Assembly: GCA_963082975.1 (NCBI GenBank)
Contig: OY720345.1
Span: forward strand, 1,563,001-1,627,000
DNA from: Labia minor
Lineage: Eukaryota; Arthropoda; Insecta; Dermaptera; Spongiphoridae
Direction of reading: 5' to 3'
DNA: 64,000 nt
Shown here: in pieces, positions 1,929-61,866 of the stretch
How the letters are laid out: the number at the start of each line of letters is the position of its first letter
How positions within the stretch are numbered: position 1 is the first letter of the stretch
The notes under the pieces: generated by a model
What the model was told of the DNA's origin: nothing
Seen by the model: the letters and a program-made list of their open reading frames with translations, nothing else
Database searches by the model: none
Program-made: the position numbers and the translations under genes

Positions 1929-3285
1929 AATAAGTTGACCTGTGGCCAGGTCCGAACCGACCGACGGTTTGAAATAAATTAATTTCCAGCTACAGAAACA
2001 ATTTCAAATAATTTTAATATATCTATTAATGTAATAAAAAACAGATATAGATAGAACATAAATATTTTTAATTTTATTTTATTTATAATATATATTGTAA
2101 TGATTTTTTGGGGCAGTAAGGTAAAATAGTAAATAAGAAAATTTTTATAAAATCAAAATTTTGAACATTTTATTTAAATTTATGTGTGTTGTAAGAATAT
2201 ATAAAAAAAAAAGGTTTGACGGATGAAATTTAGGTGTATTATTGGTCGCAACAAGGGTGTAATGGCAGCACTTTGGAAGAGGGAATCCAACTTCAGGGTG
2301 TTTCTCTTTCTGGAAGGGTGGAGAGTTCTAAGAAAGTGATGTGATGAGAACAGATGAACTGGTGGTGAAGGCGCTTGGACAGGTGGTCCCGGAGTGACAC
2401 AGCGCTGGACCGGGTGATATTGGGCTTCGGTCCCTTTTTCCTCTAATCGAGTTCCTCCGGTCGGGACACTAGCTACTGCCCGACTGCTCTCATCCAGTCC
2501 ATCCGGACGGGACGATTGCCACTCCACGACTCCTCTTTTTGGACTGCCTCTGGTCTGCTCTGCAAACACTCGCTTCAGGCTAGCTTTTCCCCTCCTTCTT
2601 CACTTCTCCTTGCGGACAACCAATTGGGTGTTCTAATTCGGCTCCGAGTCGGGGAGGATTTGATATTTGACCTGGCTTAATAGGGCTTCGTTGGAATTTG
2701 GATTTATATTTTGGTTTCATATTAATATGACCAATTCCAGAGAATATCCTAATTTTTATTTCATTTCATAGGAAATTTTCTAGAAATAAAATTCTCGAGA
2801 ATCGCTATCACTAAAATTTCACTTCAATATATAAGACCAGGCTGTGACGTCATGAATGGCTGGATGACGTCATATAATTTTAAATTAAGAAAAAAACTAA
2901 TAAAGATGATTTTTCTCGAGTATAAAACCAATACAAAGTGCATGATTCGTGGTGATATGTAAAAAATCTCCTCATGTGAAATTTGGTATGAAAATAACCC
3001 TTCCCTTCCTACCGTCGATCGCTAATACTAGCACTTCCGGTTTCCGGATTTGCACCAAAAGTTGATCAATTCATCCTACTGATGCATTAAGTAAATATAC
3101 CAAATTTCATCAAAATCGGTTGAGCCGTTCAGGCTGTACACATCTATACGGACGGACGGACAGACATCATGCTAAAAATACTTTTTTCTGTTAAGAAAAA
3201 ATGCATGATTCGTGGAGATATGTAAAAATCTCCACATGTGAAATTTGGTGTGAAAACAATACCTCCCTTACTATCGTCGGTCGGT
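1929..3285 (-). mobile_element. HINE-A copy 1, Helentron-like non-autonomous element, split by an insertion
   Basis: Read on the minus strand, the 5' end (ACCGACCGACGAT) is at 3285 and the 3' end at 1929. The 3' end holds the inverted motif ACCGTCGGTCGGT, then the hairpin GACCTGGCCACAGGTC, then AACTTATT. In between are the leader, a (GTCC)n-like tract, the core with GATGAAATTTGGTA and CCGGAAG, two TGACGTCA sites and the AT-rich 3' part. Without the insertion at 2095-2825 the element is about 620 bp, matching other full copies. There is no coding capacity. Such elements are thought to move with proteins from an autonomous Helentron, which is not present here. Confidence 0.75.
2095..2825. mobile_element. 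731-bp insertion inside HINE-A copy 1, 8-bp target duplication
   Basis: HINE-A sequence stops at 2094 and resumes at 2826 at the point expected from intact copies. Both sides carry AATATATA (2087-2094 and 2826-2833), an 8-bp direct repeat of the length made by hAT and some other DNA transposases. No clear terminal inverted repeat is visible. The insert is unusually GC-rich from about 2220 to 2690 and has a 129-codon minus-strand open frame (2180-2569) of low complexity with no recognised domain. It could be a non-autonomous element carrying host cargo. The target is AT-rich, so the exact duplication length is uncertain. Confidence 0.55.
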
Positions 3286-3819
3286 AAAAATGGATTTAAA
3301 ATAAATAAAAAAAAAATTGATTATTAATTTAATTGGTAGCACTCTGTTTATTATTGTTAATAGAAAACAGAATTGTACCTTGGATACTCTTCCAATAACT
3401 CAATTAATTAATTAATTTATGATCTTTGAAAAAGAAAAGGTCGAATTATGACAATAGGTCCCATTCATCAAACGATCCCATTTCAATTACATTGCCCCCT
3501 TTTTAGGTAAAATGTATGTATGTATGTATGTATGTATGTGAGGGTTATTAAATATTTGTCTTAAATTTTTATTTATGGTGTCTTAATGACATTCCTCTAT
3601 TAAAAGGCATTTTTATGAGTCTATGTATATTACAATATATGTTGTATATGTCAGATTTCATCTAATTTAAGTGTTACTATTGGATAAGTATCTTTATTAT
3701 TCTGATTAATTGTTCCAAAATAAATATTATTACAAAATAATAATTAGAAAATGTAATTAAATTGATATATTAGGATATAAAGTAATCCTAAAAAAATAAA
3801 TATTTCTCATAGGGCATCC
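3286..3819. other. AT-rich DNA with a (GTAT)n microsatellite
   Basis: The microsatellite lies at about 3511-3540. No gene or element is seen. Confidence 0.5.
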
Positions 3820-4110
3820 ATTTCGACACGTGTGCAAGCAGCGTTTTGTAATCATAATTTTGCTGATATGTTCGTCAACTGAAAAACCCCTCGGCCTACA
3901 TTTAAATTTATTTCCAAGTCATTTATTTTAGGCCACAATGAATTTATGGATTTACATTAGTGGCCCCCTGGGTTGGCTTTAACTGACGGGAGAGAGTTAG
4001 AGTAGTGGGCGTGAGTTGCGGGTGGTCATAATTTCATTTCCCTTTCGGAAAATCTTTCACTCGGCATCTGTATTTGCAATTAGGTTTCATTTGATGATTT
4101 CAAGTATTAT
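3820..4110. promoter_or_regulatory. GC-richer unique island, possible host regulatory DNA
   Basis: Non-repetitive sequence with balanced composition amid AT-rich filler. It holds TTTATGG and TTTACAT words typical of homeodomain sites near 3940-3960, and no convincing ORF. Regulatory function is inferred only from composition and motif words. Confidence 0.25.
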
Positions 4111-4652
4111 ATTACTCCCAAGAAAACCAGTTACTCTGCAAAATAGAATAAGTTTATCTGACAAACCTTTCTTGACTTTTTAATAACATTTTTTTTTTTT
4201 TTTTACAATCCTGTTCAATCCTGTTTTTAATACAGCCATCATGACAAGCTCTGGGACAATATTAAAAAGTTTTTAAATTTACGCAAACTCATAAAAAGCA
4301 CCTACGTTTTAAATATAAAACAAGATCTTACAATACAATTTATTTTACTATTTATTTTGTAACGCTCACTTTTTGTCCGAACGTAGATGGTTGCATTCCA
4401 ACCGCCTTAAAGCTAACTAGAATGACGTTTTACTACTGCCTGAGGGGGTTGATGAACAGAACAAAAAAAAAAAAAAAAAAAGCCAAGATACTTTTCTAGT
4501 TTCAAATTTAACTTAATAATATATATTATTAAAATGTGTTGCTTTCTAAAAATCCCATCTCTTGAGATTTTAAACTTTTGTTTTATATTTTATTTTATTT
4601 TTTATTAAATTTTATTCAGTGAATAAAATAAAAATCTTCAATCTAATGTTTA
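4111..4652. other. AT-rich DNA with poly-T and poly-A tracts
   Basis: Homopolymer runs near 4190-4204 and 4463-4481. A short GC-richer patch at 4370-4450 has no recognisable feature. Confidence 0.45.
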
Positions 4653-4702
4653 TACTTCTCTCTCTCTCTCTCCCTCTCTCTCTCTCTATATATATATATA
4701 TA
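4653..4702. repeat. (TC)n(TA)n compound microsatellite
   Basis: A TC run passes directly into a TA run. The same compound form (TA next to GA/TC) recurs at 7515-7600, 19133-19176 and 44770-44832. Confidence 0.9.
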
Positions 4703-7833: not shown

Positions 7834-8139
7834 GTAGTCTCCATGAGCAGAGTACACTTTCCAGATCCACCCTCCCCTCCTTCTGTCATTTGATTTCACT
7901 ATCTCTATTAGGTAGGATATGGAGAGGAGATTTTCACCAGCTCGATATAAAGACACGATTACCCTTGGAAATGGGGGGACACAACGTGTCCTTAATTGAA
8001 AAACATATTATCGTTTATCCGGTCAAAAATATTCTATTTTCGAGGGAAATGAAACGATCGGCTAGTAGAATTTTATAACTTTTTATTATTATTATTACTA
8101 TTATTATTATTATTTAAAGAATTGGTTTTAAAAAAAAAT
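7834..8139. other. Remainder of GC-richer island, then ATT repeats
   Basis: The unique island continues to about 8070 (a 95-codon plus-strand frame from 7791 is unrecognised), followed by an (ATT)n tract at about 8083-8112 next to HINE-C. Confidence 0.4.
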
Positions 8140-8723
8140 CTGGAGTGACTCCACTCGACTATCTCGCAAATTTCAATTGGTTTAATTAACACATATATTA
8201 ATTATATTTAAATTAAATTTAATTATTAATTATAAATTATAAATTAAAATTATAATAAATTATATTTATTAAACCAGCGCGTGCGTGTTTGGCTCTTTGT
8301 TGATGGCACCACGTCACGTGTTGGCGCGTGATTTGCAGTGTTAAAAAATTAATTCCGGTACTTTCAGGGATTTAATCAAGATAAAATTCTATACCAATAG
8401 CAGTTTTATACAATTTTTAATCATGGAAAAAAATATCAAACATACATTTTTATTTTTACGGTCACTTTAGAGGAAAAAATTGAATAGAAAACGTGGTAGA
8501 TAATGACCCTCTTCTGGTTGAGCTACATTTTTCAAAAGTTGATAGAAAACTGCGAATTTTGAATAATGCCTGTGTACCAAATTTCATTATTTTAGCTCAA
8601 ACCGTTTTTACGTAATCTTGTCTACATACATATACACACACACAGGGAGATTTTTCTCAGCCTTAGTGAAAATGACTCAGAAACTTTCAAAACGTATAAA
8701 AACCGTCAAGCTGGCGAGATAGT
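8140..8723 (-). mobile_element. HINE-C copy 1
   Basis: Minus-strand 5' end ACTATCTCGCC at 8723. The 3' end at 8140 carries inverted GCGAGATAGT, then the hairpin CGAGTGGAGTCACTCCAG and a T-rich flank. The interior has the leader, a short (TG)n tract, the core with ATGAAATTTGGTA, CAACC-GAAGAGG and an AT-rich segment near 8170-8270. It is non-coding. The 5' terminal region lacks the CGATCACGAAAATTTTCG part present in copies 2 and 4. Confidence 0.7.
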
Positions 8724-8910: not shown

Positions 8911-9835
8911 ACCGACCTACGCGATAGGAAGGGTACAGGTATTGTTTTCACACCAAATTTCACATCAGGAGATTTTTTACATATCTCCACGAATGCACTT
9001 TATATTGGTTTTATCATCGGGAAAAATCATCTTCATTAGTTTTTTCTTAATTTAAAATTTTATGACGTCACCCGGCTCTTCATGACGTCACAGTCAGCGT
9101 CAGTCCTTATATATTATAAATAAAATAAAATTAAAAGTATTTTTATGTTATATCCATATCCATATTTTTTATTGCAATAATTAAATTATTGGGTTGGCAA
9201 CTAAGTCATTGCCGATTTCATTCATAGATGACTTCAGTTGAATTTTTAGGTTTACCGACGCAGTCCAAATGTAAAACACATTTTGGTATTTGATAGTTGG
9301 CAATTCAGCTGTCAATCAGTAAAAAAAGTTTTTTGATCGGTTCCGTAGTTTTCGTTTGACGTTCGTTGAAAAATGGAAGATCAAAAGGAACATTTTCGTC
9401 ATATTTTGCTTTTTTATTTCCGCAAAGGGAAAAACGCATCGCAAGCTCATAAAAAGTTGTTTGTGGCGACGAAACCTTAAAGGAACGGACGGCAGTTTCA
9501 AAATTGGTTTGCCAAATTTCGTTCTGGGGATTTTTCACTCAAAGTTGAAAAACACTCTGGTCGTCCAGTTGAAGTTGATGACGACCTAATCAAAGCAATA
9601 ATCGAAATGCTGCCTGAAAGATGGCAAAAGGTCATTGGTCAAAATGGGCAATACATTACAGAATAAAGTTATTTAGTTCCATGAAAAAAATGTCTTTGAT
9701 TTTCTTAAAAAAACGGCAATGACTTAGTTGCCAACCTAATATATTAAAATTATTTGAAATTGTTTCTGTAGCTGGAAATGCTAATTTATTTCAAACCTTG
9801 GGTCGGTTCTGTGCCTGGCCACAGGTCAACTTATT
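8911..9835 (+). mobile_element. HINE-A copy 2, short form, carrying a mariner
   Basis: 5' ACCGACC at 8911; 3' hairpin CCTGGCCACAGG followed by TCAACTTATT to 9835. The microsatellite and core are missing: the leader runs straight into the second leader-like module, as if the two internal direct repeats had recombined. Both TGACGTCA sites remain (about 9062-9090). A mariner at 9189-9739 interrupts the 3' part at a TA. Without it the element is about 370 bp. Confidence 0.75.
9189..9739 (+). mobile_element. Internally deleted mellifera-subfamily mariner
   Basis: Terminal inverted repeats begin TTGGGTTGGCAACTAAGTC and, at the other end, TTAGGTTGGCAACTAAGTC, flanked by TA duplications at 9187-9188 and 9740-9741. 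The transposase start is at 9373 (MEDQKEHFRHILLFYFRKGK), the helix-turn-helix region typical of the mellifera group (cf. Apis mariner). After a frameshift near 9470 it continues QFQNWFAKFRSGDFSLKVEK to DDDLIKAIIEM. It then jumps in frame to the family's last residues, LPERWQKVIGQNGQYITE and a stop. The whole catalytic D,D(34)D domain is missing, so it cannot move by itself. Confidence 0.85.
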
Positions 9836-10130
9836 TTCTTTTTCTTTTTTTTTTTTTTTCAAAAGAAAGAAAGAGAATTATTATCATCTATTAAATATTA
9901 AAAAAAAAATATTAATATTATATTTTTAAATATATAAATAAATAGATATATTTTTTTATTACTTTTAATATAATATAAAATTTCTATAAACTTTCTAAAA
10001 AGCGATGAAATTAAATTCAAAAATAATTTAATTAAATTTATAAGAATAATTTTTCAATGTTTGCTGATGGCAATGAATGCTTGATAAAAAGAAGTGGATT
10101 TAGGTCTATAAATTTTGCTTAAACGAAATT
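9836..10130. other. AT-rich filler
   Basis: Poly-T/A and ATT-rich sequence. Nothing gene-like is seen. Confidence 0.5.
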
Positions 10131-11873: not shown

Positions 11874-13579
11874 TTGTAGGTTATTACGAAAGTTTTGTCC
11901 ATTTTAATGTCCTGTGTTTTTGTCGCTTCATATCTAAATAAACATATATTCTACAGTGTTGTATAAGTATACTGATCGATAGAGAATTTTGTACTCTATA
12001 CGTTGGTGCTTGTTCATTTTTTTTCTAACTTTTAATTTAATGCCTCTTTTCAGCTTATAACTAACTATATGATGTCGTTAAGCTATTTTCGACTAATTTT
12101 TACCGACCGACGATAGTAAGGGAGGTATTGTTTTCACACCAAATTTCACATGTGGAGATTTTTACATATCTCCAAGAATCATGCATTTTCTAAACAGAAA
12201 AAAGTATTTTTAGCATGATGTCTGTCCGTCCGTCTGTCCGTCTGTCCGTCCGTATAAATGTGTACAGCCTGAACGGCTCAACCGATTTTGATGAAATTTG
12301 GTATATTTACTTAATGCATCAGTGGGATGAATTGATCAACTTTTGGTGCAAATCCGGAAACCGGAAGTGGTAGTATTAGCGATCGACGATAGGAAGGGAA
12401 GGGTTATTTTCACACCAAATTTCACATGAGGAGATTTTTTTATATATTACCACGAATCATACACTTTGTATTGGTTTTATCCTCGGGAAAATCATATTTA
12501 TTAGTTTTTCTTGATTTAAAATTATATGACGTCATCCAGCCATTCATGACGTCACAGCCTGGTCTTACATATATATTATAAATAAAATAAAATTAAAAAT
12601 GTTTATATTTATTATTTATGTATTCATATCTGTTTTTTATTACATTAATAGATATATTAAAATTATTTGAAATTGTTTCTGTAGCTAGAAATTAATTTAC
12701 TTCAAACCGTTGGTCGGTTCGGACCTGGCCACAGGTCAACTTATTCTCTACGAATTCAACCTGAAAAACAGTCCGAAAAATTAATCAGGCATTTGGAAAT
12801 GATAGAACGCACTGTTCGAAGTTGATTAGCGAAATTTCGTTCATGAGATTTTAGCCTCGAAGATAAGCCCCGAAGTGCTCGACCTACAGTAATCCAGGAA
12901 AAAGATTGGATGACCCTGATGGAGACTGACCCATTGGATGGCGGAAGAACTGGGCGTTAGCTCTCATGTGGTTTTTGATGGTTTAAAACATATTGGAAAG
13001 GTCAAAAAGCTCGAAAAGTAGGCGCCACACGATTTGAACGATCTACAGAAATTGTCACGTTTCCAGGTTTGTTCGTCTTTGCTTTTGTGCAACAAAAACG
13101 ATCCTTTTTTGGATTGGATCGTCACGTGTGATGATAAGTGGATCCTATTCGACAACAGGAAACGTTCACGACAGTGGTTGGACATCGATCAGCAGCCGGC
13201 ACTGGTTAACAGGAGACACTGACCACGTTTCACAAATCACAGTCCAAATATTAAACGAATTGAGCATCAAAGTTCTGTCTCATCCACCATACTCCCCAGA
13301 CCTCTCGCCAACCGACTACCACGTTTTCAAGCACTTCGACAACTTTCTCACTGGTAGAACCTTCACCAATCAGGACCAGGTAAAAACGGTCTTCGTCGAC
13401 TTTATCGAAACACGAGCACCCAATTTTTATGCTGACGGAATTAATCGACTTGTGTTACGTTGGCAAAAGTGCGCTGATTCAAATGGCGTTTATTTCGATT
13501 AAATTGAATAAGTATTCACTGAGATATTAAAGTTTAAAGTAGACTCATAAAAACGGACAAAACTTTCGTAACAACCTAA
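11874..13579 (+). mobile_element. Cecropia-type mariner, interrupted by HINE-A
   Basis: Inverted ends read AGGTTATTACGAAAGTTTTG (left) and AGGTTGTTACGAAAGTTTTG (right, inverted), with TA duplications at 11872-11873 and 13580-13581. The transposase begins MSLSYFRLIF at 12072, is interrupted by HINE-A (12102-12745) and resumes LYEF. Later blocks are VTCDDKWILFDNRKRSRQWL (first catalytic Asp), SHPPYSPDLSPTDYHVFKHF (third catalytic Asp region) and a C-terminus WQKCADSNGVYFD, as in Hsmar1/SETMAR-type enzymes. The central part with the second Asp (LLHDN) is deleted at about 13195. Several stops and frameshifts; it is dead. Without HINE-A it is about 1.06 kb. Confidence 0.85.
12102..12745 (+). mobile_element. 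HINE-A copy 3, full length, inside the mariner
   Basis: 5' ACCGACCGACGATAG to 3' hairpin GACCTGGCCACAGGTC plus AACTTATT, about 644 bp. It has all parts: leader, (GTCC/GTCT)n, core with GATGAAATTTGGTA, CCGGAAGTGG, the second leader-like module, two TGACGTCA sites and the AT-rich 3' part. The host mariner frame on both sides shows that it landed in a run of Ts without deleting codons, in line with T^T targeting. Confidence 0.8.
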
Positions 13580-14501: not shown

Positions 14502-15390
14502 AATCACTAAAAACAAATACTATATATGCACTATAAATACACGATATTTGAAAAAACAGAAAAACAAACAAGCAATTTACCACTCTATACAATAAAATAA
14601 TATAATTATGATAATTATAAATTTTTTTTTTTTTTTTTAAAAGTTCATTTATTTGAAATAATGTCTATGTTATTAGTGTATTCGCTGGAAAGCTTCTTTT
14701 ATTAAAGAATAAGATCAGAAATATCATTCTGCATTTGATAAATTTAATAAATTACAGTGAAGGGTAGATTCGAAAATATAATTAAACTTTTATGATTAAA
14801 AAAGTGGAATTTGTCATTTGGCTTATTTGTTCTGATGCGTTTTCAAATCATATTGAGTATTCACTAATTTTTCCTGACCAGTCTATTTATATGATTTAGA
14901 GACATTTTTTTTTTATCTAATACTTTTTATTTTAAAATGCATACAATTTTAATAATATGTATAATTAAATAAATCAAAATTTTGACAAGTTTTTATTATT
15001 GTTATTTAATTCGTTGTATTTTTCATCTAAAATATTTAGAGAAAAATAATTTTATTGATATTCGAGTTTAACATTTCATTAGAAAAGATTTAATTCTTTA
15101 TATTTTTTTCTTTTTATATAAATAATGAAAGATTTATTAAAAAAATAAATAAATTTCATACTTTCAAACTTTCAGTTGTTATCCCCTGAGAGTTAGGCAA
15201 TCAGAGATATGAATTGACGAAGTGTGGATACCACACAAATTCATTCACTTTCTACTCTCCTTTTCATTCAAATTAATAGAATTCATTATGTTTAATTCTA
15301 ACAAATTGACATTAAATTAAATCTACAAGCATAATATATTTTACATAAATTTATAAATTTTGTTTTTTGAAAGAGATCAAAAAAAATTAG
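14502..15390. other. AT-rich filler with a small GC-richer patch
   Basis: Poly-T at about 14623-14638. A slightly GC-richer unique patch lies at 15175-15260. No element is seen. Confidence 0.45.
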
Positions 15391-15995
15391 CTGGAGTGTC
15401 TCCACTCGACTATCTCGCAATTTGAATTGGATTAAATAACATAATATATTATATTTAAATTAAATTTAATTAATTATAAATTATAAATAATAAATATTAA
15501 ACCAGCGCATGTTTGGCTTTTTATTGATGGCACCATGGCACGTGTTGGCGCGTGAGATTTGCAGTTTTAAAAAATTAATTCTGGTACTTTCAGCGATTCA
15601 ATCAAGCTGAAATTCTATATATAGCAGTTTTATACAATTATTAATCATGTGAAAAATTATCAAACATATATCTTTATTTTTACGGTCACTTTAGAGGAAA
15701 AAAAATCAAAACGTTGTAGGTAATGATCCTCTTCCGGTTGAGCTACATTTCTCAAAAGTTGATAGAAAACTATGAATTTTGAATAATGTCCATGTACCAA
15801 ATTTCATCATTCTAGCTCAAACCGTTTTTGCGTAATCTTGCCTGCATACAAACACACATACACACATACACACACACACAGACATTTTTCTCAACCTTAG
15901 TGAAAATGATTCAGGAACCTTCAAAACGTATAAAAACATCAAAATCTCAACATCGAAAATTTTCGTGATCGCAATACTATCTCTGGCGAGATAGT
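15391..15995 (-). mobile_element. HINE-C copy 2, most complete
   Basis: Minus-strand 5' end ACTATCTCGCCAGAGATAGT at 15995, itself a small hairpin. It continues through the leader to CCTGAATC, a (TG)n tract at about 15852-15880, the core with GATGAAATTTGGTACATG, CAACCGGAAGAGG, a GGCGCGCC-poor middle and an AT-rich part. It ends at inverted GCGAGATAGTCGAGTGGAGA and CACTCCAG at 15391. It is about 605 bp and has no ORF. Best reference copy of the family in this window. Confidence 0.75.
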
Positions 15996-16785: not shown

Positions 16786-17600
16786 AAAAACCATTCGAAT
16801 CAATACACTTTTATCAACGAGAAACAAGTTTATTTATGCCGATAGCGTAAAATTCTGGAGTCCTGGAGGCGATAAAGTCTTTAAAGGCATTTTTGCCGTC
16901 GTCTTGGTTTTTGAAGCAAGTTGTCGAATTGCTTGATAAAGTGGTAGTCAGTGAGCGATAGGTCCGGTGAGTATGGCGGATGAGGTAGAGTCTCGTAGCT
17001 TAATTCATTCAACTTTTGCAGTGTCATTTGAGCGACGTGTGGCCAAGTGTTGTCGTGGAGCAGAATTGGTCTGTTTTCGTTCTGTTGTCTAATGCCGGGC
17101 ACATACGCTGCATCTTCTGGTGCATTTCGACAATTTGTTGACAATACTTGTCTGCCATAATTGTTTCGACTGGATCAGGAAGCTGTGATGGATAAGACAG
17201 ACACTATAATCGTTCGATCACGGTCCAACATCGACGGTTGTCGAAAAAAATCCACTTTTCTTTGCAGGTTATAATCCGGTCGAGAAGAAGCGGGTCTTTT
17301 TTGTTGCGCTGAGAAAGAGACAATGATCAAAACTGTCGGATGAGTGACGCTTACGTCTTCCGCAAGCTCTTTAATCGTTGAACGCGGTTCTTCTTCAACA
17401 AATGCCTTCAACTGATGGACGCACACGACCTTCTTAATCTTTGAGGCTCTCATCTCCACTTCTTAAACTTCCTAAACTAAAGTTACGCCACACGTTCTTG
17501 AACAATGTCAGGACCAAAGGCATTATTAATTTTCGACTTTCGCAATACCCTGTTTAAACTCGTACAGGAAAATATCCCGGATTTGTTACTTCTCCGTTTG
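16786..17600 (-). mobile_element. Cecropia-type mariner, eroded
   Basis: On the minus strand: an N-terminal relic near 17600, then LKAFVEEEPRSTIKELAEDV (second helix-turn-helix linker region, about 17340-17400) and DYNLQRKVDFF. Next come RPILLHDNTWPHVAQMTLQK (second catalytic Asp) and LPHPPYSPDLSLTDYHFIKQ (third Asp, 34 residues on). The C-terminus is IASRTPEFYAIGINKLVSR and KCIDSNGFYFD. A central gap removes the first-Asp region, and there are several stops and frameshifts. Terminal inverted repeats were not found, so both ends are eroded. It is related to, but not a copy of, the mariner at 11874. Confidence 0.8.
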
Positions 17601-20040: not shown

Positions 20041-20048
20041 AAAAGTAT

Positions 20049-27666: not shown

Positions 27667-27911
27667 TCGTAATTTGGATATCATTATTCTTCTGACATGT
27701 CGAGACATATTTTTTAGGCTATTTTTCCAAATATGTCAACTAATGAAATTAATTTTAGATTCGCCAATGTCATCGCACGTGATTAATGGTAATATATTTA
27801 CTTTTAATGTAATGCAAATAACAATACATATATTTATGTATATTATTATTATATATAAATATAATATTAAGTATCTGGTTTACCGAGCAGCCGCTCGGTA
27901 ATTTAAAAAAT
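27667..27911. other. AT-rich DNA
   Basis: No gene. CCGAGCAGCCGCTCGG near 27884-27899 is a perfect 16-bp palindrome. Confidence 0.5.
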
Positions 27912-28370
27912 CTGGAGTGTCTCCACTCGACTATCTCGCAAATTTGAATTGGATTAATTAACATATAATATATTTAAATTAAATTATAAATTAAAATTAA
28001 TAAATAAATTTATTAAATCAGTGCGTGTTTGGCTCTTTGTTGATGGCACCACGTCACGTGCTGGCGCGTGATTTGCAGTGTTAAAAAATAAATTGCGGTA
28101 CTTTCAACGATTCAATCAAGCTGAAATTCTATACCAATAGCAGTTTTATACAATTTTTAATCATGTGAAAAACTATCAAACAAATATATGTTTATTTTTA
28201 CGGTCAGTTTAGTGGAAAAATAATGAAAACGTGGTAGGTAATGACTCTCTTCCGAAAGAGCTACATTTCTCAAAAGTTGATAGAAAACTACGAATATTGA
28301 ATAATGTCCGTGTACCAAATTGCATTATTCTAGTTGAAACCGTTTTAGCGTAATCTTGACTCGAGATAGT
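27912..28370 (-). mobile_element. HINE-C copy 3, 5' region deleted
   Basis: The 3' end with hairpin CGAGTGGAGACACTCCAG is at 27912. The core with CAATTTGGTACACGG is near 28310. The element then jumps from the core directly to an ACTATCTCGAG terminus at 28370, so the microsatellite and leader are missing. Confidence 0.65.
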
Positions 28371-29130: not shown

Positions 29131-30447
29131 TCATTCTTAATTATAAGATTATAACAATTTTAATATTTGAATGCTCTCATTATGAATATTACAAATTAAT
29201 TATTACAAATATATATATTATTTTAATCTTTTCAAAAATGTTCCATACAAGTTCTATTATATTTTAATATAATATCTTTCTTCTTATAAAGTTATTTATC
29301 ACTTTTATTCTATAAATTGAATTTATTTCTTATTTCTGTTGAGAAATAATAGATTGGATTACTCCAGCTACATACATATATGATGCTTGTTTTATTTTAC
29401 TCACATTATAAATATTCGATAATATTCATTTTTTTTAAAACATTTAAAAATAATAAATAAATGTCAATTAATATTAGATAATTAAAAAATTAATAAATAT
29501 CATCATTTTCCTAAGGAAAAAAATCTTTAATATTCTAAGGAGATCAAACATTTAAATTTAAGTTTAAAATTAATAAATGTAATAATAAAAACGAAAATAA
29601 TATCAATTGATATATATTTTATTTATTTAAAATTTTATTTATTTATACAAATTAAATATTTATTTTATTTATTAAAAAAATATCGATAAAAGTTGAAAGT
29701 CTATATTAGAGCGGTCCGCTATTTCTAAGAAGCATGCCTATAAATTGAAAAGGAATTTAAGGACCGATTACGAAAGGGGTTTCTAACTTGTCATTCTTAC
29801 CCTCTTAACAAAATATTAAGAATAGATAATGAAATTTCATTATATCTATTATATATATATAATAAAACTAATATTAATAAAATATATATTTTAGTAGAGA
29901 CAAGATATTTATTCTTACAAAAAATTATTATCTCTCATTAATTAAATACGCAATTAATCAATTTAGAAAATCTACAAATCTACATCACATAAAAAAATAA
30001 AAAAAAGTATTATATATATTTATCATACACAATCTAAATAAAGCTCTTTTGACTGACTCCTTCACCCAACCTATATATTATATGTAATACAATAGATAAT
30101 TTTCTGTCAAAAATTATAGATAAATTAAACTCTTTCATCCAAAATACCAAATTAATCTTTCAAATAAAAGTATAATCAGGTAAATAACATAACTTATTTA
30201 TAAAATTAAAACATATATTTATAATTAACTGAATGATTTTTCATTGAGCGTAAAACAAGGAAAATGAGAGAATGACTACTACTAATGCTCTCTACTCTAA
30301 TAATTTTTTTTTTTTTTTTTGAAAACATATTTTACATTAAATTTATAAATATTTGTAACTTATCCAATAACAAACAATTTAACTTTATTTTTATTTAATT
30401 AATAATTTCGCTATAAAAATAATGCAAACCTAATGACATTAAATTGG
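29131..30447. other. AT-rich filler
   Basis: A short GC-richer unique patch at 29695-29830 (GAGCGGTCCGC). Otherwise homopolymer-rich. No gene. Confidence 0.5.
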
Positions 30448-30885
30448 CTGGAGTGTCTCCACTCGACTATCTCGCAATTTAAATTAAATTAAATTAAATA
30501 ATATAATATAATATATTATATTTAAATTAAATTTAATTAATTATAAATTATAAATTAAAATTAATAAACCAGCGCGTGTTTGGCTCTTAGTTGATGGCAA
30601 AGTTACGGTCACTTTAGAGGAAAAAAAATCAAAACCCTCTTCCGGATGAGCTACATTTCTCAAAAGTTGATAGAAAACTACGAATTTTGAATAATGCCCG
30701 TAAAACCATATTTCATGATTCTAGCTCAAACCGTTTTTGCGTAATCTTGTCTACATACACACACAGAGAGAGACATTTTTCTCAATCTTAGTGAAAATGA
30801 TTCAGGAACCATCAAAACGTATAAAACCATCAAAATCTCAACATCGAAAATTTTCGTGATCGCAATACTATCTGTTACGAGATAG
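30448..30885 (-). mobile_element. HINE-C copy 4, middle deleted
   Basis: 5' end ACTATCTCGTAACAGATAGT at 30885, leader with GATCACGAAAATTTTCGATG, short microsatellite, core, and 3' hairpin CGAGTGGAGACACTCCAG at 30448. About 170 bp between the GGCACCACGTCACGTG part and the TTTACGGTCACTTT part are missing relative to copy 2. Confidence 0.7.
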
Positions 30886-31612
30886 TAACAAATTATTTCT
30901 TATAGACTGTGCATATTGTTTTAAGATTATTTACGGGTTTGGCCGGGAATATAAATAAATTTGTTGCAGCGTTTAAGCGTAAAGATCCACCTTTCTATTA
31001 TTCTTATCTTATAATAATCTCACTTCTGTCACTATTTATACATAGAAAATATCAATCAATTTTTGTAATTTTGGTTTCAAATACATTTTATAAGGATTTA
31101 TTAAAAATTCCCTGCTGTTGATTCATTATTAGTGTATATATAATATAATATCTTTATACTCATTCTAGTATCAATAAAATTAAAATAGAAATACAATCCT
31201 TTTTTGGATTAAATTATTCAGAATAAAGGAAATATTTCAAATATTGTTTATCAGGAGGAATATGGAACCAAATCGGTAAACCGCAGCTGAACCAGTTTAC
31301 TTACAAGTTTTGCAAATACTTTTCAATATCTTTGAAATAAATAAATTCAAGTTTCAAACTTTCTTAACTAAATAATTTTTTTTTTTATTTCGAATTTCTT
31401 CATATATTTATTTGATTTATTTTTTTTATTAGATTCCATATTGTTTTGATATTTATTTAATACTACCTGCTACTCTTTTATTTTCAAATATAAAAGAGTA
31501 TTGAGACTCTTATAATAAAAAGTCGTTTATGAATATCATTTTATTTATTTACTAATTGAATTCTTTATTTTTATTTTGGGAATTAAAGAATTAGATACAA
31601 ATAAATATAATC

Positions 31613-32580: not shown

Positions 32581-32702
32581 TCTTTTTTTTATTTACTAGA
32601 CTAGATATTATTAACAAATAGAAAAAATTTAAAATATATAATTCAGACAATAAATTCAATTATTCATAGAGCCTTAAAAAATGGAAGCGCATTTTCTTTT
32701 AC

Positions 32703-32890
32703 ACAGAAAAAAGTATTTTTAGCATGAGGTCTGTTCGTCTGTCCATTGTGTCTGCGTATAAACGGGTATAGATAGCTTAAACGTCACAACGGATTTTGAT
32801 AAAATTGAATATATTTACTTAATGCATCAGTAGCATGAATTCATCAACTTTTGGTGTATATCCGGAAACCTGATGTGATAGTTTACAAAG
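32703..32890 (+). mobile_element. HINE-A fragment, strongly decayed
   Basis: Aligns with the middle of HINE-A: CAGAAAAAAGTATTTTTAGC, a decayed GTCTGTCC tract, then TTGATAAAATTGAATATATT and ACTTAATGCATCAGTAGC, to CCGGAAACC. Both ends are missing and divergence is high. Among the oldest HINE-A pieces here. Confidence 0.7.
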
Positions 32891-33011
32891 TATTAATTTT
32901 ATATTCATTGTCTCAAAATATTTCATAGTAGTAATTAATAATTGAATAATTAAACTATTTTATTATTTTAATTCAAGTTTTAAAGATATTTTTTTTTTAT
33001 ACTTTGAAAAT

Positions 33012-36979: not shown

Positions 36980-37245
36980 ACTTTCCCGCATACTTCGTAT
37001 AAGGGAAGTATTGGAATCGTCAAAAATTTCGACTTCGAGATTTCGATAGATCTTGACGTTTTAGACCTTTATTTATTTATATATATAAATGTTACCAAAT
37101 ATCAAATTTGACACCAATAAACTAATACGAACTGGCTCTTTATCAATACCAAGTTTACATTCAGTACACATTCTAAATATTCATTCACAACTCTTTATAC
37201 CTATTTATATGAGGGAAAGTCTAGGGGAGGACACTCCCGCTTATT
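36980..37245 (+). mobile_element. HINE-B copy 1, minimal form
   Basis: 5' ACTTTCCCGCATACTTCG, a leader with GAGATTTCGATAGATCTTGA, then a jump past the microsatellite and core to the AT-rich 3' part. It ends in the inverted motif GAGGGAAAGT, the hairpin GGGGAGGACACTCCC and GCTTATT. It is 266 bp, versus about 840-960 bp for the chimeric copies. Confidence 0.75.
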
Positions 37246-37334
37246 TTTCTTATGGTTGTGATTACGCTCGGTGAAAGTTTAAAAATCTAATATTTAACAT
37301 TTAATTGTGATTTAGTTTTTTTAAAATATTTTTA

Positions 37335-41302: not shown

Positions 41303-41936
41303 ACCGACCGACGATCGAGTAAGGGAGGTATTGTTTTCACACCAAATTTCACATGTGGAGATTTTTACATATCTCCACGAATCATGCATTTTCTTAACAG
41401 AAAAAAGTATTTTTAGCATGATGTCTGTCCGTCCGTCTGTCCGTCCGTATAGATGTGTACAGCCTGAACGGCTTAACGGATTTTGATGAAATTTGGTATA
41501 TTTACTTAATGCATCAGTGGGATGAATTGATCAACTTTTGGTGCAAATCCGGAAACCGGAAGTGGTAGTATTAGCGATCGACGATAAGAATGGAAGGGTT
41601 ATTTTCGCATCAAATTTCACATAAGGAGATTTTTTTACATATCACCACGAATGTATTGGTTTTATCCTCGGGAAAAATCATCTTCATTATGTTTTTCTTA
41701 ATTTAAAATTATATGACGTCACCCAGCCCTTCATGACGTCACAGCCTCGGGTAACGCCGGCTACTTCAGCTATATATTATAAATAAAATAAAATTAAAAA
41801 TATTTATGTTATATTCATATCTGTTTTTTATTACATTAATAGATATAATAAAATTATTTGAAATTGTTTCTGTAGCTGGAAATTAATTTATTTCAAACCG
41901 TCGGTCGGTTCGGACCTGGCCACAGGTCAACTTATT
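41303..41936 (+). mobile_element. HINE-A copy 4, young subfamily
   Basis: Complete: ACCGACCGACGATCGAG to hairpin GACCTGGCCACAGGTC and AACTTATT. It shares with the copy at 60938 the markers CGATCGAGTAAG, GGTAACGCCGGCTAC and CACCACGAATGTATTGG, which older copies lack. The two are almost identical outside the microsatellite, implying recent spread. Confidence 0.85.
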
Positions 41937-43239
41937 TTATAATAGGGTCTAAAGAAGAATATGATGTTTATGATATATAGGTACTCGTAAAATAGTACTC
42001 TCACATTAATAAAGATTTTTTTATGATTAGTACACTTTCATTCATTTACACTTAAAAAAAACCAAAGCGATTGTCTCTGTAAATTTGAACTTCTGATTGT
42101 GAGACTTATTAGTAGTATGTACATGTTTTGCTAATATTCTACAAATATTTACTAACAAATATAATATAAATTATTATTAAAGTATGATAATGAAAATTGG
42201 GGATGAGACAAACCATCCAATGATGAAGATCCCCTGAACTGTAGTATGCTTGTTGTAGACATTTTTAGACAGTGAGTTAGTTGTATTAATTCAGTTTGAT
42301 TCATATTTATCCTGGCGCATGGTACTTACCTAAAAACAAAAAAGAAACAAATAAAAATTTGTATATATAAATATCAATAGTAATTAATTAAGCTTGAAAG
42401 TTATTAATGTTAAATAAATCAACTAATTACTAGGATTAGGCAAAGTTCACTCAGTTCTTTTGTTCTATATGTTTGTTGATATAAACTTCCTGCTATCTTT
42501 CATGAAGCTTTTTAAGCTGTGCAAACTTTAGTTTTCATCCAATAAATTTTAAAATATGATAATAGCACACAAGTTATGAAAACAAAGAACAAATTTCTGA
42601 ATTCGTATAACTAACTTACATATTATTATAGGAGCAAATGATTTTTCAATTTATTAAAATCAGTCTAATTCAAACATCAAAAATAGATTATAATTTTTAT
42701 TGAAAATGTTAAATGATAGTGATGATTGTATATTTTAAAATAACCTTACCTAAATGGGGTGTTTTTATTTTGATGGAACTTTTTTCTTTTTAAAAGTTTA
42801 AAACAGTAATTGGATTGATCCAGCTATATTATCTTTAACATGCATAATTAATGCATAATTAAAAAATATCCAATTTTTTTACCTTTTAAATACTAAAGTT
42901 CAAGATCTCACTGAATTATTGTACAAACGAAAATAAAATAAAATATTGTGTAGAATGCAGAAACAGGTCACCAGTAATTGGAACAACCGGTTTATTGGAT
43001 TATTTTCCTTGCAATAGAGAATTCAAATTCAAACATGAATTACTTTAATACATAATAAATAATATAAACCTACTATTATATGAAAACATTGATTACAATC
43101 GATATTCAATTAAATAATAAATAATATTAATATAAACTTAAATTGAATAATAATTGACGATTAAAATATTAATAATAATTATAAATAGTTAAATAGAGTA
43201 CTACTGTAAGAGCGTGGCTTTATTATTTAGGAAAATAAA
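41937..43239. other. AT-rich DNA with unique patches
   Basis: A moderately GC-richer patch at 42180-42340 ends at the candidate recursive splice site. The rest is AT-rich. No coding exon is recognised. Confidence 0.45.
42321..42362 (-). promoter_or_regulatory. Candidate recursive splice site (ratchet point)
   Basis: Minus strand: a T-rich tract of about 28 nt interrupted only by single A, G or C, then TTTTTAG directly joined to GTAAGTACC, junction at 42330/42329. A strong 3' splice site abutting a perfect donor is the signature of zero-length recursive splicing exons in long insect introns. It could also be an ordinary acceptor or donor, or chance. Confidence 0.35.
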
Positions 43240-45306: not shown

Positions 45307-45477
45307 ACTTTCCCGCATACTTCGTATAAGGGAAGTATTGGAATCGTCAAAAATTTCGACTTCGAGATTTCGATAGATCTTGACGTTTTAGACCTCCCTG
45401 AGTCGGAAAATACCATTTTTCGAATTATGTCTGTGTGTGTGTATGTATGTATGTATGTATGTATGTATGTATGTATG

Positions 45478-45508
<31 letters not shown>

Positions 45509-46143
45509 TGTCTGTAAGCAAATTTACTCAAAAACTAATCAAGCTAGGACTTCGAAATTTGGTACACCGATATTATTCACAGTTTGTAGATTTCTATCAA
45601 AATTTCGTCAAAATCGGTTAACCGGAAGTGGTACTTTACCTACACTGGTTGCGTTTACCTTTCAAGTAAAGTACCAGTTTGCTTCGAGATATTTGCTTCA
45701 TATTTTGTATATAGATTTAAAAATATGAAAAAAATTGAGATACCAAATTTCATCATCATCTGACTACCGGAAGTGACATTTTAGTAGCGTTTCTTTTTTA
45801 CCGACCGACGATAGTAAGGGAGGTATTGTTTTCACACCAAATTTCACCTATGGATATTTTTAGGTACATATCTCCACGAATCATGCATTTTCTTAACATT
45901 AGTTTTTTCTTAATTTAAAATTATATGACGTCACCCAGCACTTCATGACGTCACAGCCAGCCCTTATATATTATAAATAAAATAAAATTAAAAATATTTA
46001 TATTATATCCATATCTGTTTTTTTTACATTTAAAATATCAGTTAACCGGAAGTAGCACTTTATTACATTCTAAATATTCATTCACAACTCTTTATACCTA
46101 TTTATATGCGGGAAAGTCTAGGGGAGGACACTCCCGCTTATTT
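45307..46143 (+). mobile_element. HINE-B copy 2, chimera containing a HINE-A segment
   Basis: 5' ACTTTCCCGCATACTTCG, leader with GAGATTTCGATAGATCTTGA and CCTGAGTC, (GTAT)n at about 45440-45508, core with CGAAATTTGGTACACCG, AACCGGAAGTGG. Then at 45800 the 5' end of HINE-A (ACCGACCGACGAT) runs to about 46028, including both TGACGTCA sites but lacking the HINE-A 3' terminus. It returns to HINE-B sequence and ends with ATGCGGGAAAGT, hairpin GGGGAGGACACTCCC and GCTTATTT. Confidence 0.8.
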
Positions 46144-47650: not shown

Positions 47651-47930
47651 TAGAATAGATATTTGTTTCCGAAGCACAGTCATAGGAAACACTTAAACTC
47701 TAACTATATAATATATTAAATGGAGATACTACAACCAAAGGTGTTATTTTGTTGCTTTAATGGGAAAGCAATCGAATAAATTCTAATAAAGAGCTTTCTA
47801 TTTGCACGTCAAACCTCTATTTTTTCCTTCACACCCTCTGTTTTCTCTTTCTCTCTCTCTCTCTCTCACTCTTTTCATTTTTTTATTCTTTTTCTTTTCT
47901 ATTCACTTTTACGTAAATAAATAAAAAAAT
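47651..47930. other. AT-rich DNA with (TC)n
   Basis: (TC)n at about 47848-47868. Nothing else is seen. Confidence 0.5.
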
Positions 47931-48651
47931 AAGCGGGAGTGTCCTCCCCTAGACTTTCCCGCATATAAATAGGTATAAAGAGTTGTGAATTAATATTTAG
48001 AATGTGTAAACTTGGTATTGATAAAGAGCCAGTTCGTATTAGTTTATTGGTGTCAAATTTGATATTTGGTAACATTTATATATATATATATATAGAATAA
48101 AGTGCTACTTCCGGTTAACTGATATTTTAAATGTAAAAAAAACAGATATGGATATAATATAAATATTTTTAATTTTATTTTATTTATAATATATAAGGGC
48201 TGGCTGTGACGTCATGAAGTGCTGGGTGACGTCATATAATTTTAAATTAAGAAAAAACTAATGTTAAGAAAATGCATGATTCGTGGAGATATGTACCTAA
48301 AAATATCCATAGGTGAAATTTGGTGTGAAAACAATACCTCCCTTACTATCGTCGGTCGGTAAAAAAGAAACGCTACTAAAATGTCACTTCCGGTAGTCAG
48401 ATGATGATGAAATTTGGTATCTCAATTTTTTTCATATTTTTAAATCTATATACAAAATATGAAGCAAATATCTCGAAGCAAACTGGTACTTTACTTGAAA
48501 GGTAAACGCAACCAGTGTAGGTAAAGTACCACTTCCGGTTAACCGATTTTGACGAAATTTTGATAGAAATCTACAAACTGTGAATAATATCGGTGTACCA
48601 AATTTCGAAGTCCTAGCTTGATTAGTTTTTGAGTAAATTTGCTTACAGACA

Positions 48652-48682
<31 letters not shown>

Positions 48683-48717
48683 CACACACACAGACATACA
48701 TACATACATACATACAT

Positions 48718-48766
<49 letters not shown>

Positions 48767-48887
48767 TAATTCCAAAAATGGTATTTTCCGACTCAGGGAG
48801 GTCTAAAACGTCAAGATCTATCAAAATCTCGAAGTCGGAATTTTTGACGATTCCAATACTTCCCTTATACGAAGTATGCGGGAAAGT
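47931..48887 (-). mobile_element. HINE-B copy 3, same chimera, opposite orientation
   Basis: 5' ACTTTCCCGCATACTTCG at 48887; 3' hairpin and AAGCGGGAGTG at 47931. The embedded HINE-A segment (about 48130-48361) has the same two junctions as copy 2, so the chimera formed once and then spread. It keeps about 120 bp of 3' part (including GGTAACATTTATATA) that copy 2 lacks. Microsatellites: (TG)n, (GTAT)n. Flanks differ from copy 2, so this is not a segmental duplication. Confidence 0.8.
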
Positions 48888-50185: not shown

Positions 50186-51656
50186 TTACAAATACGAGTG
50201 CAGCAAAGCGAAATGAAAAAACAAAACAATATAGAATATATGTGTTTAGAATTTATGAAAAAAACAAGTTTTTTTTTTCTCTCTAAAAATATTTTTAAAC
50301 AATAGAATTCATTCATATTTTCAAATTATAGAAATTATATTTTGCTTAATTATTTTAAAGTAAATTTTAAAAATTTAAAAATATATATATTTTATATTCT
50401 TATATAATTAAACAAGAATATATTTAAGAATTTTTTTTTTTTTTTGGTAAAATTCAACTAGTATTTTTAAATAATTGAAAATTAATTTATTTAAAACTAA
50501 ATATGGGCCATTTTTATTGACAATGCCATCGGTAAAGAATTTCTACGGTTTGGTTGAAAAACTGAATCAAATGTTTTCATAGGATTCTTTTGTGAATCCA
50601 GTTTAAAAATCTAAAAATTGCATATAGACTTTTTTAATGACCACGTGACCAGAGCACGATTCAACTTTCACAACAAAATTTCCATAACAAAAGCGAGTGA
50701 ACCATTGCAGTAGTTTTTAAACCGTAAACAGCAAGATTTTTTGCAAAAGTCTGTGTGAACCGTTCTTTCCTTTCTCATAATAATATTGAAAAGTATAACG
50801 TATTTTTTCATTATTTTTATATCTATGGATAATCCAAATAATCTAACTTTCGAACTATTAAAAAAATTTCCAACTAACAATCTAACGCTCCAAGTGACAC
50901 GTTTCTAATGACCATTTAGTTGGTGGTGTTACAATCTGTATTTTCAGAGCACAATATAATAAGCTTTATATTATTATTATTATTATTTATTGTGTATATT
51001 GACCCTTTTGAGATCATGGAAACCTTTCATCATCAGCGAGCATCTTAATCTTCTGCCGTTCTGGACGCGCTAGGAGCGAAGTATTAACCTTTGAGAGCAA
51101 TACGATTCCCCATTCTATTATATACTCGTATACTCGTCTATAAAATTATTATTATATGGTTTCATATCCTTATTGAGTCATTTCATTTGTTTTATTTAAT
51201 ACTTGAATAAATAATACTTAACGTGTTCTTGTCAATGTTCTTTTTTTTGCCTTGTCCTCAATAATAAATTGCTTTTAATGAAAAAAAATTGAGTTCGTAT
51301 TATCTATCTTGCAAAGGGCGAAGATGCATCGTTTTCTTTTGACATTTTGACATCCTATGAAATATATAGAATTATTGCTACTTTAGCTATGTCTGTCTAT
51401 CCATGCATGTATGTATAAACAATGGTCGTAAAATACTTTTTACACACAGAACAAGATACGGAAAGAGAACGGAACTTATTTTTTTTGAAAAACCAACAAT
51501 TATTATTCAATTTTATATATTAAGTACATAAATATGTCTATTAAAAAAATATTTATATCTTATCATATAATATAATACTTAGATATCTACGTTCATTAAA
51601 ATCTTTTATATTTTAAATTAATTTTTTGTGAGAAGAAGCTGCTATACTCTTAAAAT
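50186..51656. other. AT-rich DNA with patches of unique sequence
   Basis: Patches at 50520-50780, 51010-51110 and 51300-51470 are less AT-rich; the last has TE-like words but no alignable ends. No gene. Confidence 0.4.
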
Positions 51657-51880
51657 AAAATGAGCTGTGACCAGGCACAGAACGGACCGACGATTTGAAA
51701 TAAATTAATTTCCAAATAACATTTTATATATATATGACTACCACTTCCGGTTTCAAAAGTTGATGAATTCATGCAACTGATACATTAAGTAAATTATTAT
51801 ATCAATTTTTTTCAAAATCCGTTAACGGACGGACGGACATCATGCTAAAAATACTTTTTTTCTGTTAACATGAGAGATAT
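51657..51880 (-). mobile_element. HINE-A fragment, decayed
   Basis: Minus strand: AACAGAAAAAAAGTATTTTT, GATGTCCGTCCGTCC, GTTAACGGATTTTGAAAAAA, GCATGAATTCATCAACTTTT, CCGGAAGTGG, then a jump to the 3' end with degraded hairpin CTGTGCCTGGTCACAG. Leader and 5' terminus are missing. Confidence 0.65.
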
Positions 51881-59680: not shown

Positions 59681-60330
59681 TGAGTTTCAATAGTCCCCGT
59701 TGGAGTGAGTTTTAGTATCATCACGTCATATAACGAGATGCTGAGTCGAGAGTACGTACACCTAGCAGCATGGATTTAATTAAAACATCCCGGTGTAAGC
59801 TTTGATTTGCTAAAACAGCGAATGGCAAATCCCTAGCAATCAAGTTTATTAGAAAACTTTGTTAACTTTATCTCTATCTAAATTATATATATATCATATA
59901 TTGTAAGTATATTATAGGATTTTAATTATTTATTATATTTTTTTTTTTTTTTTTGATAGTTAAGTTGCCAAAGTGACTCCCTCATTTGGTCCTGAACAAA
60001 TGTCAAGAGCCTCGCGGTTGGATCGTTGCTCTCTGCCGCCTTCATTACCATATTATTGACTGACACAGCTAACACGGGGGGTGGGGTGGGGGTGGAGAGG
60101 GATGGAATTTAGACAACACAAGCGATCGAGGTCATGATGCGGAGGACGTAGAATCAGGAATGGGCAGGGGTTGAAAGGCAAATATCCGCAACGAGTTCAG
60201 CATGTGAAAATACGGACAGGGGAGACCCACGTTATTTGTATATAAATAAGTTTGGAAATTCTTGAGTTGAAAGTAGATCGTGAAGAGATGAGGGCTGACG
60301 AAAGAGATATATACTTTACGAAACACCATT
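59681..60330. promoter_or_regulatory. GC-richer unique island in two blocks
   Basis: Blocks at 59690-59860 (ATTTAATTAAAAC, TCACGTCATATAA) and 59955-60330 (G-rich run at about 60076-60102) flank an AT stretch. No credible ORF. Confidence 0.25.
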
Positions 60331-60937
60331 TGAGAATAAATTTTCTCCTTTCTTGACTTAATCAAGTCAATATTAAAATATGTATGTACAATATATAAGA
60401 ATGAAAATAAAAACAAACAAAAAAACAAAAAAAAAACAAAAAAAAAAATTTAAATTTAATATTATTATTTAAAATAAAAAAAAAAAACAAATCGACCAAT
60501 TACTTAATTATTTTGAAGTTTTTCTTTATAGAATAATAATTACATTAAATACAAGATAGTTTTACAAATTCAATATATATCTATGTATATAATTTTTTAT
60601 TTATTTTTTTTTTTGGATTTTATTAATTATTTCGATTAATCTTGGAAATTTGTAATGAGTTATTTAATTAAACAAGAATTAAATAATCCAATAGGCAAAT
60701 TAGAAAATAGAGAGTTGGTTATTCCCAAGAGATTAATTGAATTCAAGCTCACTCTTTTGGTTATTATAATAATACTAAGCTTTAATGGAATATAGTACGT
60801 ATATAAGTACTCCCAATATAAACATTAATAATAATACAATACATAATGATTTATAATAATTTGTCATTTTCATCATTTCACACATTTCACAATAAATACA
60901 TTTTGTAATTATTGTGATAAGAATTTGTATTATTTTT
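60331..60937. other. AT-rich filler
   Basis: A-rich tracts at 60410-60490. Nothing gene-like is seen. Confidence 0.5.
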
Positions 60938-61866
60938 ACCGACCGACGATCGAGTAAGGGAGGTATTGTTTTTACACCAAATTTCACATGTGGAGATTTT
61001 TACATATCTCCACGAATCATGCATTTTCTTAACAGAAAAAAGTATTTTTAGCATGATGTCTGTCCGTCCGTCCGTCCGTCCGTCCGTCCGTCCGTATAGA
61101 TGTGTACAGCCTGAACGGCTCAACCGATTTTGATGAAATTTGGTATATTTACTTAATGCATCAGTGGGATGAATTGATCAACTTTTGGTACAAATCCGGA
61201 AACCGGAAGTAGTCCGTCCGTCCGTCCGTCCGTCCGTATAGATGTGTACAGCCTGAACGGCTCAACCGATTTTGATGAAATTTGGTATATTTACTTAATG
61301 CATCAGTGGGATGAATTGATCAACTTTTGGTGCAAATCCGGAAACCGGAAGTGGTCCGTCCGTCCGTCCGTCCGTCCGTATAGATGTGTACAGCCTGAAC
61401 GGCTCAACCGATTTTGATGAAATTTGGTATATTTACTTAATGCATCAGTGGGATGAATTGATCAACTTTTGGTACAAATCCGGAAACCGGAAGTGGTAGT
61501 ATTAGCGATAGACGATAAGAAGGGAAGGGTTATTTTCGCACCAAATTTCACATAAGGAGATTTTTTTACATATCACCACGAATGTATTGGTTTTATCCTC
61601 GGGAAAAATCATCTTCATTATGTTTTTCTTAATTTAAAATTATATGACGTCACCCAGCCCTTCATGACGTCACAGCCTCGGGTAACGCCGGCTACTACAG
61701 CTATATATTATAAATAAAATAAAATTAAAAATATTTATGTTTTATCCATATCTGTTTTTTATTACATTAATAGATATATTAAAATTATTTGAAATTGTTT
61801 CTGTAGCTGGAAATTAATTTACTTCAAACCGTCGGTCGGTTCGGACCTGGCCACAGGTCAACTTAT
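60938..61866 (+). mobile_element. HINE-A copy 5, young, with internal triplication
   Basis: 5' ACCGACCGACGATCGAG at 60938; 3' hairpin GACCTGGCCACAGGTC plus AACTTATT to 61866. It belongs to the same young subfamily as copy 4. Its extra length (929 versus about 634 bp) comes from three tandem copies of the microsatellite-plus-core module. All other parts, including two TGACGTCA sites at about 61645-61673, are in place. Confidence 0.85.
61094..61497 (+). repeat. 142-bp tandem triplication of the HINE-A core
   Basis: Units start at 61094, 61236 and 61378. Each reads from GTATAGATGTGTACAGCC through GATGAAATTTGGTA and CCGGAAACCGGAAGT, and the first two end in a (TCCG)n tract. Units differ at one or two positions, so the expansion is recent. 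Confidence 0.9.

Follow-up and report, generated by a model that had tools for sequence, protein, structure and literature searches.

HINEs have been described as deletion derivatives of Helentrons with common ends, which insert at T-rich targets without target modification (Thomas et al., 2014, PMC4067079). For Drosophila, Yang and Barbash (2008, PMC2374699) reported a ~90-bp core common to 12 species; 11 of these species have five subterminal inverted repeats (subTIRs) between them, and D. willistoni has three subtypes that differ in subTIR. The Cg_HINE elements of the Pacific oyster form related groups with element-specific subTIR changes (PMC7492417). The stretch analyzed here, hereafter the window, comprises 64,000 nucleotides of Labia minor DNA (contig C2:1563001-1627000 of a 604-Mb assembly in 71 contigs) with an A+T content of 72%, and contains three families, HINE-A, HINE-B and HINE-C (A, B and C below), which are genuine repeats in the window. 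We think it likely that all three are non-autonomous Helentron derivatives, with a shared interior that corresponds to a Helentron 5´ non-coding region inherited by lineages whose tips and subTIRs have diverged.

The likeness to DINE-1/INE-1 (Yang and Barbash, 2008) comprises the subTIRs, a partial inverted repeat next to the 5´ tip, a GTCY microsatellite, a conserved core, variable central repeats, a 3´ stem-loop, insertion at TT and several subTIRs on one core. In contrast to DINE-1, which was compared by its description and not by its sequence, B is here a composite carrying A, and a Helentron with C ends reveals the origin of the core. A, B and C also have the anatomy of the HINEs and Helentrons of mite, Culex and Drosophila (Thomas et al., 2014), and C, too, appears to be a deletion derivative; the mite HINEs reportedly are without the core. 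With Cg_HINE they share the subTIR, the inverted repeat, the microsatellite (GTCY, GTCC or GTCK in several), central tandem repeats and a 3´ palindrome, but the A repeat is its own 142-bp monomer of microsatellite plus core, with 1 to 4 cores per element in 38 rows of scored copies, a sample skewed to three-core elements because the query had three cores. By the rule that members of a HINE family have at least 11 identical subTIR bases (Thomas et al., 2014), A, B and C are separate families. The first-pass annotation of this DNA had put forward a radiation of related elements with switched ends as an idea of its own; in outline this is not new, given the Drosophila precedent (Yang and Barbash, 2008), and we regard the A/B/C set as a good new example of a published pattern and not as a new principle.

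The origin of the shared interior is indicated by a Helentron found outside the window. A genome search with the Pfam Helitron_like_N profile gave 104 matches, and four 9.9-kb regions were fetched (fetched loci carry L numbers). In L064, the C 3´ end lies ~1.2 kb past a 2,181-aa open frame, and the adjoining L065 gave the C 5´ tip. The element thus delimited, the C Helentron, occupies contig C1:47862605-47874777 on the minus strand and is 12,173 bp long; each of its tips is a C end. Over its initial 515 bp it aligns with positions 1-497 of HINE-C at 93.4% identity, a second stretch of 237 bp matches at 94%, and the terminal bases are identical at 45 of 45 positions. Since the first 515 bp and last 45 bp match HINE-C, what the families share internally, from the leader through the microsatellite and core to CCGGAAG, is the non-coding 5´ region of a Helentron, and HINE-C would be a deletion derivative that kept this region together with the 3´ end. 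The frame matches DUF6570, Helitron_like_N (1.3e-23) and PIF1 (1.9e-31), and its Rep motif 2 reads VEFQMRGSPHEH, the Helentron-type RGSPH, in which the S is Helentron-diagnostic (Thomas et al., 2014). Judged by this coding content, the C Helentron is probably an autonomous-type element with a frame for Rep, PIF1 and a probable endonuclease. The relatives of the frame were 31-98% identical among the best 22 of 1837 candidates scored in a protein search. Compared with the Helentrons of Thomas et al. (2014), the frame has in addition a possible Ulp1/C48-like (SENP8-like) stretch, C-terminal after the endonuclease-like part and in the same frame, which is sub-threshold (L064:1395-2060, minus strand; 19.6 bits for PF02902, whose cut-off is 20.7; SENP8 E=0.0044). 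Three further loci, L061 and L062 (RGLPH, canonical type) and L063 (RGSPH), had no A, B or C tip at up to 1 mismatch; a HINE-C start lies at the edge of L062.

Within the window we found four complete copies of A and several remnants, two long copies and one short copy of B, and four copies of C (of which one is complete and the others have 5´ deletions or divergence) plus one 3´ half:

1929..3285, minus strand: HINE-A copy A1, complete but enlarged by ~745 bp of extra sequence (2095-2840)
12102..12745, plus strand: HINE-A copy A2, complete
12378..12467, plus strand: second, internal leader of A2 (also in A1, A3 and A4), with TT just before it
41303..41938, plus strand: HINE-A copy A3, complete
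60938..61868, plus strand: HINE-A copy A4, complete, with the 142-bp microsatellite-plus-core monomer three times in tandem (61070-61497)
8911..9837, plus strand: A-like element without core, broken by a mariner-like insert (~9188-9738)
32689..32882, plus strand: old A core fragment
51652..51868, minus strand: diverged A remnant with leader end, core and 3´ end
45307..46143, plus strand: HINE-B copy B1, holding a nested A remnant
45800..46030, plus strand: 3´-truncated A within B1, A core lost
47927..48887, minus strand: HINE-B copy B2, holding a nested A remnant; flanks unlike those of B1, probably a separate insertion
48130..48360, minus strand: 3´-truncated A within B2, A core lost
36980..37248, plus strand: HINE-B copy B3, short, without core and without nested A
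8130..8723, minus strand: HINE-C copy C1, 5´ hairpin partly deleted
15381..15995, minus strand: HINE-C copy C2, complete, the reference copy
27902..28370, minus strand: HINE-C copy C3, leader and microsatellite deleted
30438..30886, minus strand: HINE-C copy C4
33005..33231, plus strand: HINE-C 3´ half

All three families extend well beyond the window. The A 3´ end had 22,557 genome matches and the B 3´ end 3,562 (at most 3 mismatches; 0 for a reversed-pattern control), and the best 40 of 2408 candidates for HINE-C were near-full copies at 95-100% identity. For HINE-A the best 40 of 2763 candidates were scored, and for B2 the best 40 of 788.

To compare the families segment by segment, A3, B1 and C2 were cut into tip, leader, core, post-core and 3´ end, and each pair was scored against 1000 dinucleotide shuffles. 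The cores scored 34 (A-B), 31 (A-C) and 66 (B-C) against null maxima of 26, 30 and 30, with 0/1000 shuffles reaching the observed score in each pair. The leaders were also alike (7/1000 shuffles for A-B, 15/1000 for A-C and 1/1000 for B-C, the last with a score of 35). No pair of tips was above chance (959, 713 and 142 of 1000 shuffles), and of the 3´ ends only that of B and C stood out (score 26, 0/1000; 150/1000 for A-B and 258/1000 for A-C), with hairpins reading AGGGGAGGACACTCCC in B and AGTGGAGACACTCCA in C. For the post-core segments, A-B reached 229 against a null maximum of 37, which is produced by the A nested in B, and 14/1000 shuffles reached the score for both A-C and B-C, where the reverse complement (35 and 37) aligned as well as the forward strand (34 and 35). 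By alignment of leader, core and 3´ hairpin, B and C are thus clearly sister families, and A appears to be linked to them by a weaker core and leader likeness that is still above shuffles. The interiors that the first-pass annotation aligned therefore do exceed shuffled controls, although the A-B core does so equally well reversed, and the single ancestor it proposed is supported at least for B and C, with A linked by weaker scores. Its description of unrelated-looking ends with different 3´ hairpins fits the tips in every pair and the A hairpin, but not the B and C hairpins.

Most of the words it listed, including the tips, were present as stated, but several were shared less widely. We found exact matches for the tips ACCGACCGACGAT, ACTTTCCCGCAT and ACTATCTCGCC at 6, 5 and 2 window sites, and TAAGGGARGTATTG was exact at 9 sites, in A and B. 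Exact copies of GAAATTTGGTAC are confined to B and C (4 sites), with A reading GAAATTTGGTAT. For CCTGAGTC, the two long B copies alone match exactly, a third match at 5431 lying outside any C element; its counterparts are CCTGAATC in C2 and TCTGAGTC in C1. Little weight attaches to GAGATTT, ATGTCTGT, CCGGAAG, TGAATAAT and CTAGCT alone, which occur in the window 29, 13, 16, 25 and 11 times, respectively. A conserved stem-loop in the core was considered and set aside (single-stranded DNA folding z of -1.16 for A, -0.02 for B and -2.09 for C).

The Helentron/HINE layout that had been recognized from the ends was borne out. A subTIR at the 5´ tip with an inverted copy inside the 3´ end is present in A, B and C, and the 3´ ends, one per family, fold better than nearly all shuffles (z -3.78, 0/200 shuffles folding as well, for A; -3.80, 1/200, for B; -2.53, 5/200, for C); in the minimum-energy fold of the B 3´ end the subTIR pairs with the 3´ arm of the hairpin. 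In the window and fetched loci, TT precedes 37/37 distinct complete A copies (38 rows, L001 being window A4) and TTTTT precedes 15/15 complete B copies. Joining the flanks of insertions and comparing the 54 resulting pairs with the other DNA of the window and fetched loci gave empty sites for B in L071 (120/120 bases identical to L061:785-904) and in L078 (an insertion into HINE-C, 94% over 119), for A in L020 (an insertion into another A, 97.5% over 121, one T off) and, more weakly, for B in L068 (88% over 50, two Ts off). Target-site duplications were absent from all four, and no clean empty site for HINE-C was found among the joined flanks. A and B insert between Ts without target-site duplication, and these empty sites fit the Helentron/HINE layout. 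Besides the A inside another A in L020, A elements were seen inserted exactly at the 3´ end of another A (L007:865-2421 and L023). Two other classes were rejected: canonical Helitrons (5´ TC, 3´ CTRR, A/T insertion), given tips starting AC, 3´ ends in CTTATT or AATT and T-run targets, and miniature inverted-repeat transposable elements, given that the 3´ inverted copy is internal to the hairpin and that the B and A empty sites are without duplication. Co-variation of the tip with the neighboring inverted repeat held only in C (21/5000 shuffles reaching the score) and was dropped for A (2795/5000) and B (2497/5000).

A further layer is the nesting of A within B. We fetched 12 of the places found with B2, picked to cover the patterns seen; all 12 copies are bounded by both B ends, tip and 3´ end, and in 11/12 the A 5´ end lies at the identical position. 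Ten of the 11 nested A elements keep the GTCC microsatellite, core and second leader and end before the A 3´ end, L076 has the first 63 bases of A only, and L077 has a later A piece only. With the window copies included, 13/15 complete B copies have an A 5´ end inside. B1 and B2 are of this composite type, without an A core between the two A leaders, and B3 is without A. B1 and B2 lie in inverted orientation and, since their flanks differ, are probably separate insertions. The simplest reading is that one A-holding B was amplified as a unit. The nested, 3´-truncated A in the long B copies explains the strongest A-B match, the post-core score. A 3´-truncated A also lies inside the C Helentron, outside its C leader and core. 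The A elements themselves are layered: in all four complete window copies a second leader follows the core with TT before it, like the 5´ end of an A´ element (L021:2197).

A mechanism can be outlined from the published Helitron/Helentron model. The Helentron Rep (rolling-circle endonuclease, PIF1 helicase and apurinic/apyrimidinic endonuclease) would nick the 5´ tip, one strand would be peeled off while being resynthesized, halting at the 3´ hairpin, and the released strand would be joined into a T-run. In a HINE, a few hundred bases from the 5´ side of its Helentron would remain together with the 3´ end, and the genes would be lost. The tips and subTIRs of related Helentron lineages may have diverged together with Rep, and A and B would have, or have had, Helentrons of their own. 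Such a rolling-circle mode is suggested for A, B and C by published work and coding content; the scheme takes as its observed footing C and its Helentron, the kinship of B and C, and the spread of A-containing B.

Several observations weigh against this scheme. The A-B core aligns as well in reverse complement (35) as forward (34), so that homology by the core alone is not strand-specific, and the kinship of A to B and C consists of modest core and leader scores only. Of the autonomous Helentrons with each end pair envisaged in the first-pass annotation, we found a probable one for C, and none for A or B in profile and protein searches that scored the best candidates only. The end pieces of three other Helentron-like genes, which may stop short of the true ends, have no A, B or C tips. 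The Exo_endo_phos_2 match in the C Helentron frame (0.0013) is under the Pfam cut-off. Among the joined flanks, 19/54 matched across the joint, mostly in low-complexity sequence or A itself, and several T-run bases differ between A in L026 and its empty paralogue. The spread of the B-A composite is based on flanks of chosen copies and not on a full count.

It is unlikely, though arguable, that A resembles B and C because unrelated Helentron lineages exchanged sequence by gene conversion or nesting, and not by descent. A is nested in most complete B copies and in the C Helentron, the largest A-B match is itself a nested piece, and the A core also matches the B reverse complement. Nevertheless, the A-C core and leader exceed shuffles with their order kept, even though the A found within the C Helentron does not overlap the C leader and core.

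The first-pass annotation had allowed that the ends were either swapped or diverged. We consider it quite improbable that a core-bearing element gained new tips by recombination or capture and so came under different Helentron Reps. The A tip is unlike those of B and C, yet the TAAGGGARGTATTG that follows it matches B; the second internal leader of A after TT resembles one 5´ end stacked upstream of another; and the A 5´ ends inside B copies provide stacked 5´ ends as raw material for a swap. Against this, of 79 tips after TT in the window and fetched loci (56 A, 16 B and 7 C), the matching 3´ end follows within 1.7 kb for 58 (15/16 B, 40/56 A and 3/7 C), and 8 have no 3´ end in that range. 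Ends of two families combine only at 13 A tips, for which the sole 3´ end in range is that of B; these are the 13 nested in B copies that have both B ends, and no element with the 5´ end of one family and the 3´ end of another was found in this DNA. Since B and C share leader, core and 3´ hairpin despite different tips, as divergence predicts, their ends look diverged, not swapped. For A, with tip and hairpin both different and an autonomous A not found, swap and divergence are both possible. An A-core/C-3´ chimera at 32689-33231 was considered and not retained, a pair of adjacent old fragments being indistinguishable from a chimera.

Chance likeness of short words in AT-rich DNA, to which the frequency of several listed words in the window and the tip-repeat pairing of A and B, no better than shuffles, would point, is most improbable and already disfavored by the core test, in which the alignments exceed 1000/1000 dinucleotide shuffles in all three pairs, widely so for B-C.

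Scanning the window and fetched loci with a profile built from the three cores gave 132 matches, seven of them far from all three cores, and two of these seven lie in a different element starting TCTTATATATAAAATTCTCGTG (L060:2465-2665 and L008:1162-1362). Near forms of the A core motif AACGGCTCAACCGATTTTGATGAAATTT occur ~50 bp inside this element, AACGGCTGGACCAATTCTTATGAAATTT in L060 and AACGACTGGACCGATTCTTATGAAATTT in L008. Both score 31 against the A core, above 2000/2000 shuffles and above 592 real 200-bp pieces (maximum 29), and neither is above chance against the B and C cores. The nhmmer E-values are weak (0.0074 and 0.0092) and the pair was selected out of a search, and we regard the motif as a lead. 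In other animal Helitrons, similar motifs occur close to the 5´ end. It is a speculative, and on present indications unlikely, extension that the core motif serves rolling-circle transposons as a cis-acting signal, one that predates both Helentrons and canonical Helitrons or has moved between the two groups, and around which lineages change their tips. If the TC-start element is a canonical Helitron, as its TC start could indicate, the core motif would bridge Helentrons and Helitrons.

We also noted other features of this DNA. The extra sequence in A1 has a G+C content of 41% against 28% for the window and a 139-aa stop-to-stop frame on the minus strand, and could be either captured host DNA or a nested element. 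The short mariner-like insert in the A remnant at 9188-9738 is apparently TA-flanked, and mariner transposase-like pieces occur among 9188-9738, 13038-13502 and 16881-17462, with weak, sub-threshold DDE_3 matches. A perfect (100%) 97-bp inverted repeat with a 26-bp spacer lies at 20048-20267, and two long inverted-repeat pairs (112 nt at 78% and 83 nt at 94%; 21560-21764 and 23736-23938) surround ~2 kb that is perhaps another transposon. Elsewhere, Helitron Rep fragments recur along contig C5:46739897-46792979, several at intervals of ~9.8 or 5.7 kb, like a tandem array of Helitron remnants. Rfam at gathering thresholds gave no matches, the core words had no exact matches in viral and prokaryote collections, and A3 had none in phage records.

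Collectively, these observations tie a very abundant repeat, with its 22,557 A 3´ ends in the genome, to Helentrons, a known kind of element. One genome shows most of the chain, from a Helentron with an unbroken frame to a deletion derivative, a nested composite at multiple sites and short tandem arrays of the core, and the long-standing question of the function of the conserved DINE/HINE core could now be put to the test in a Helentron assay in which ends and cores are exchanged.

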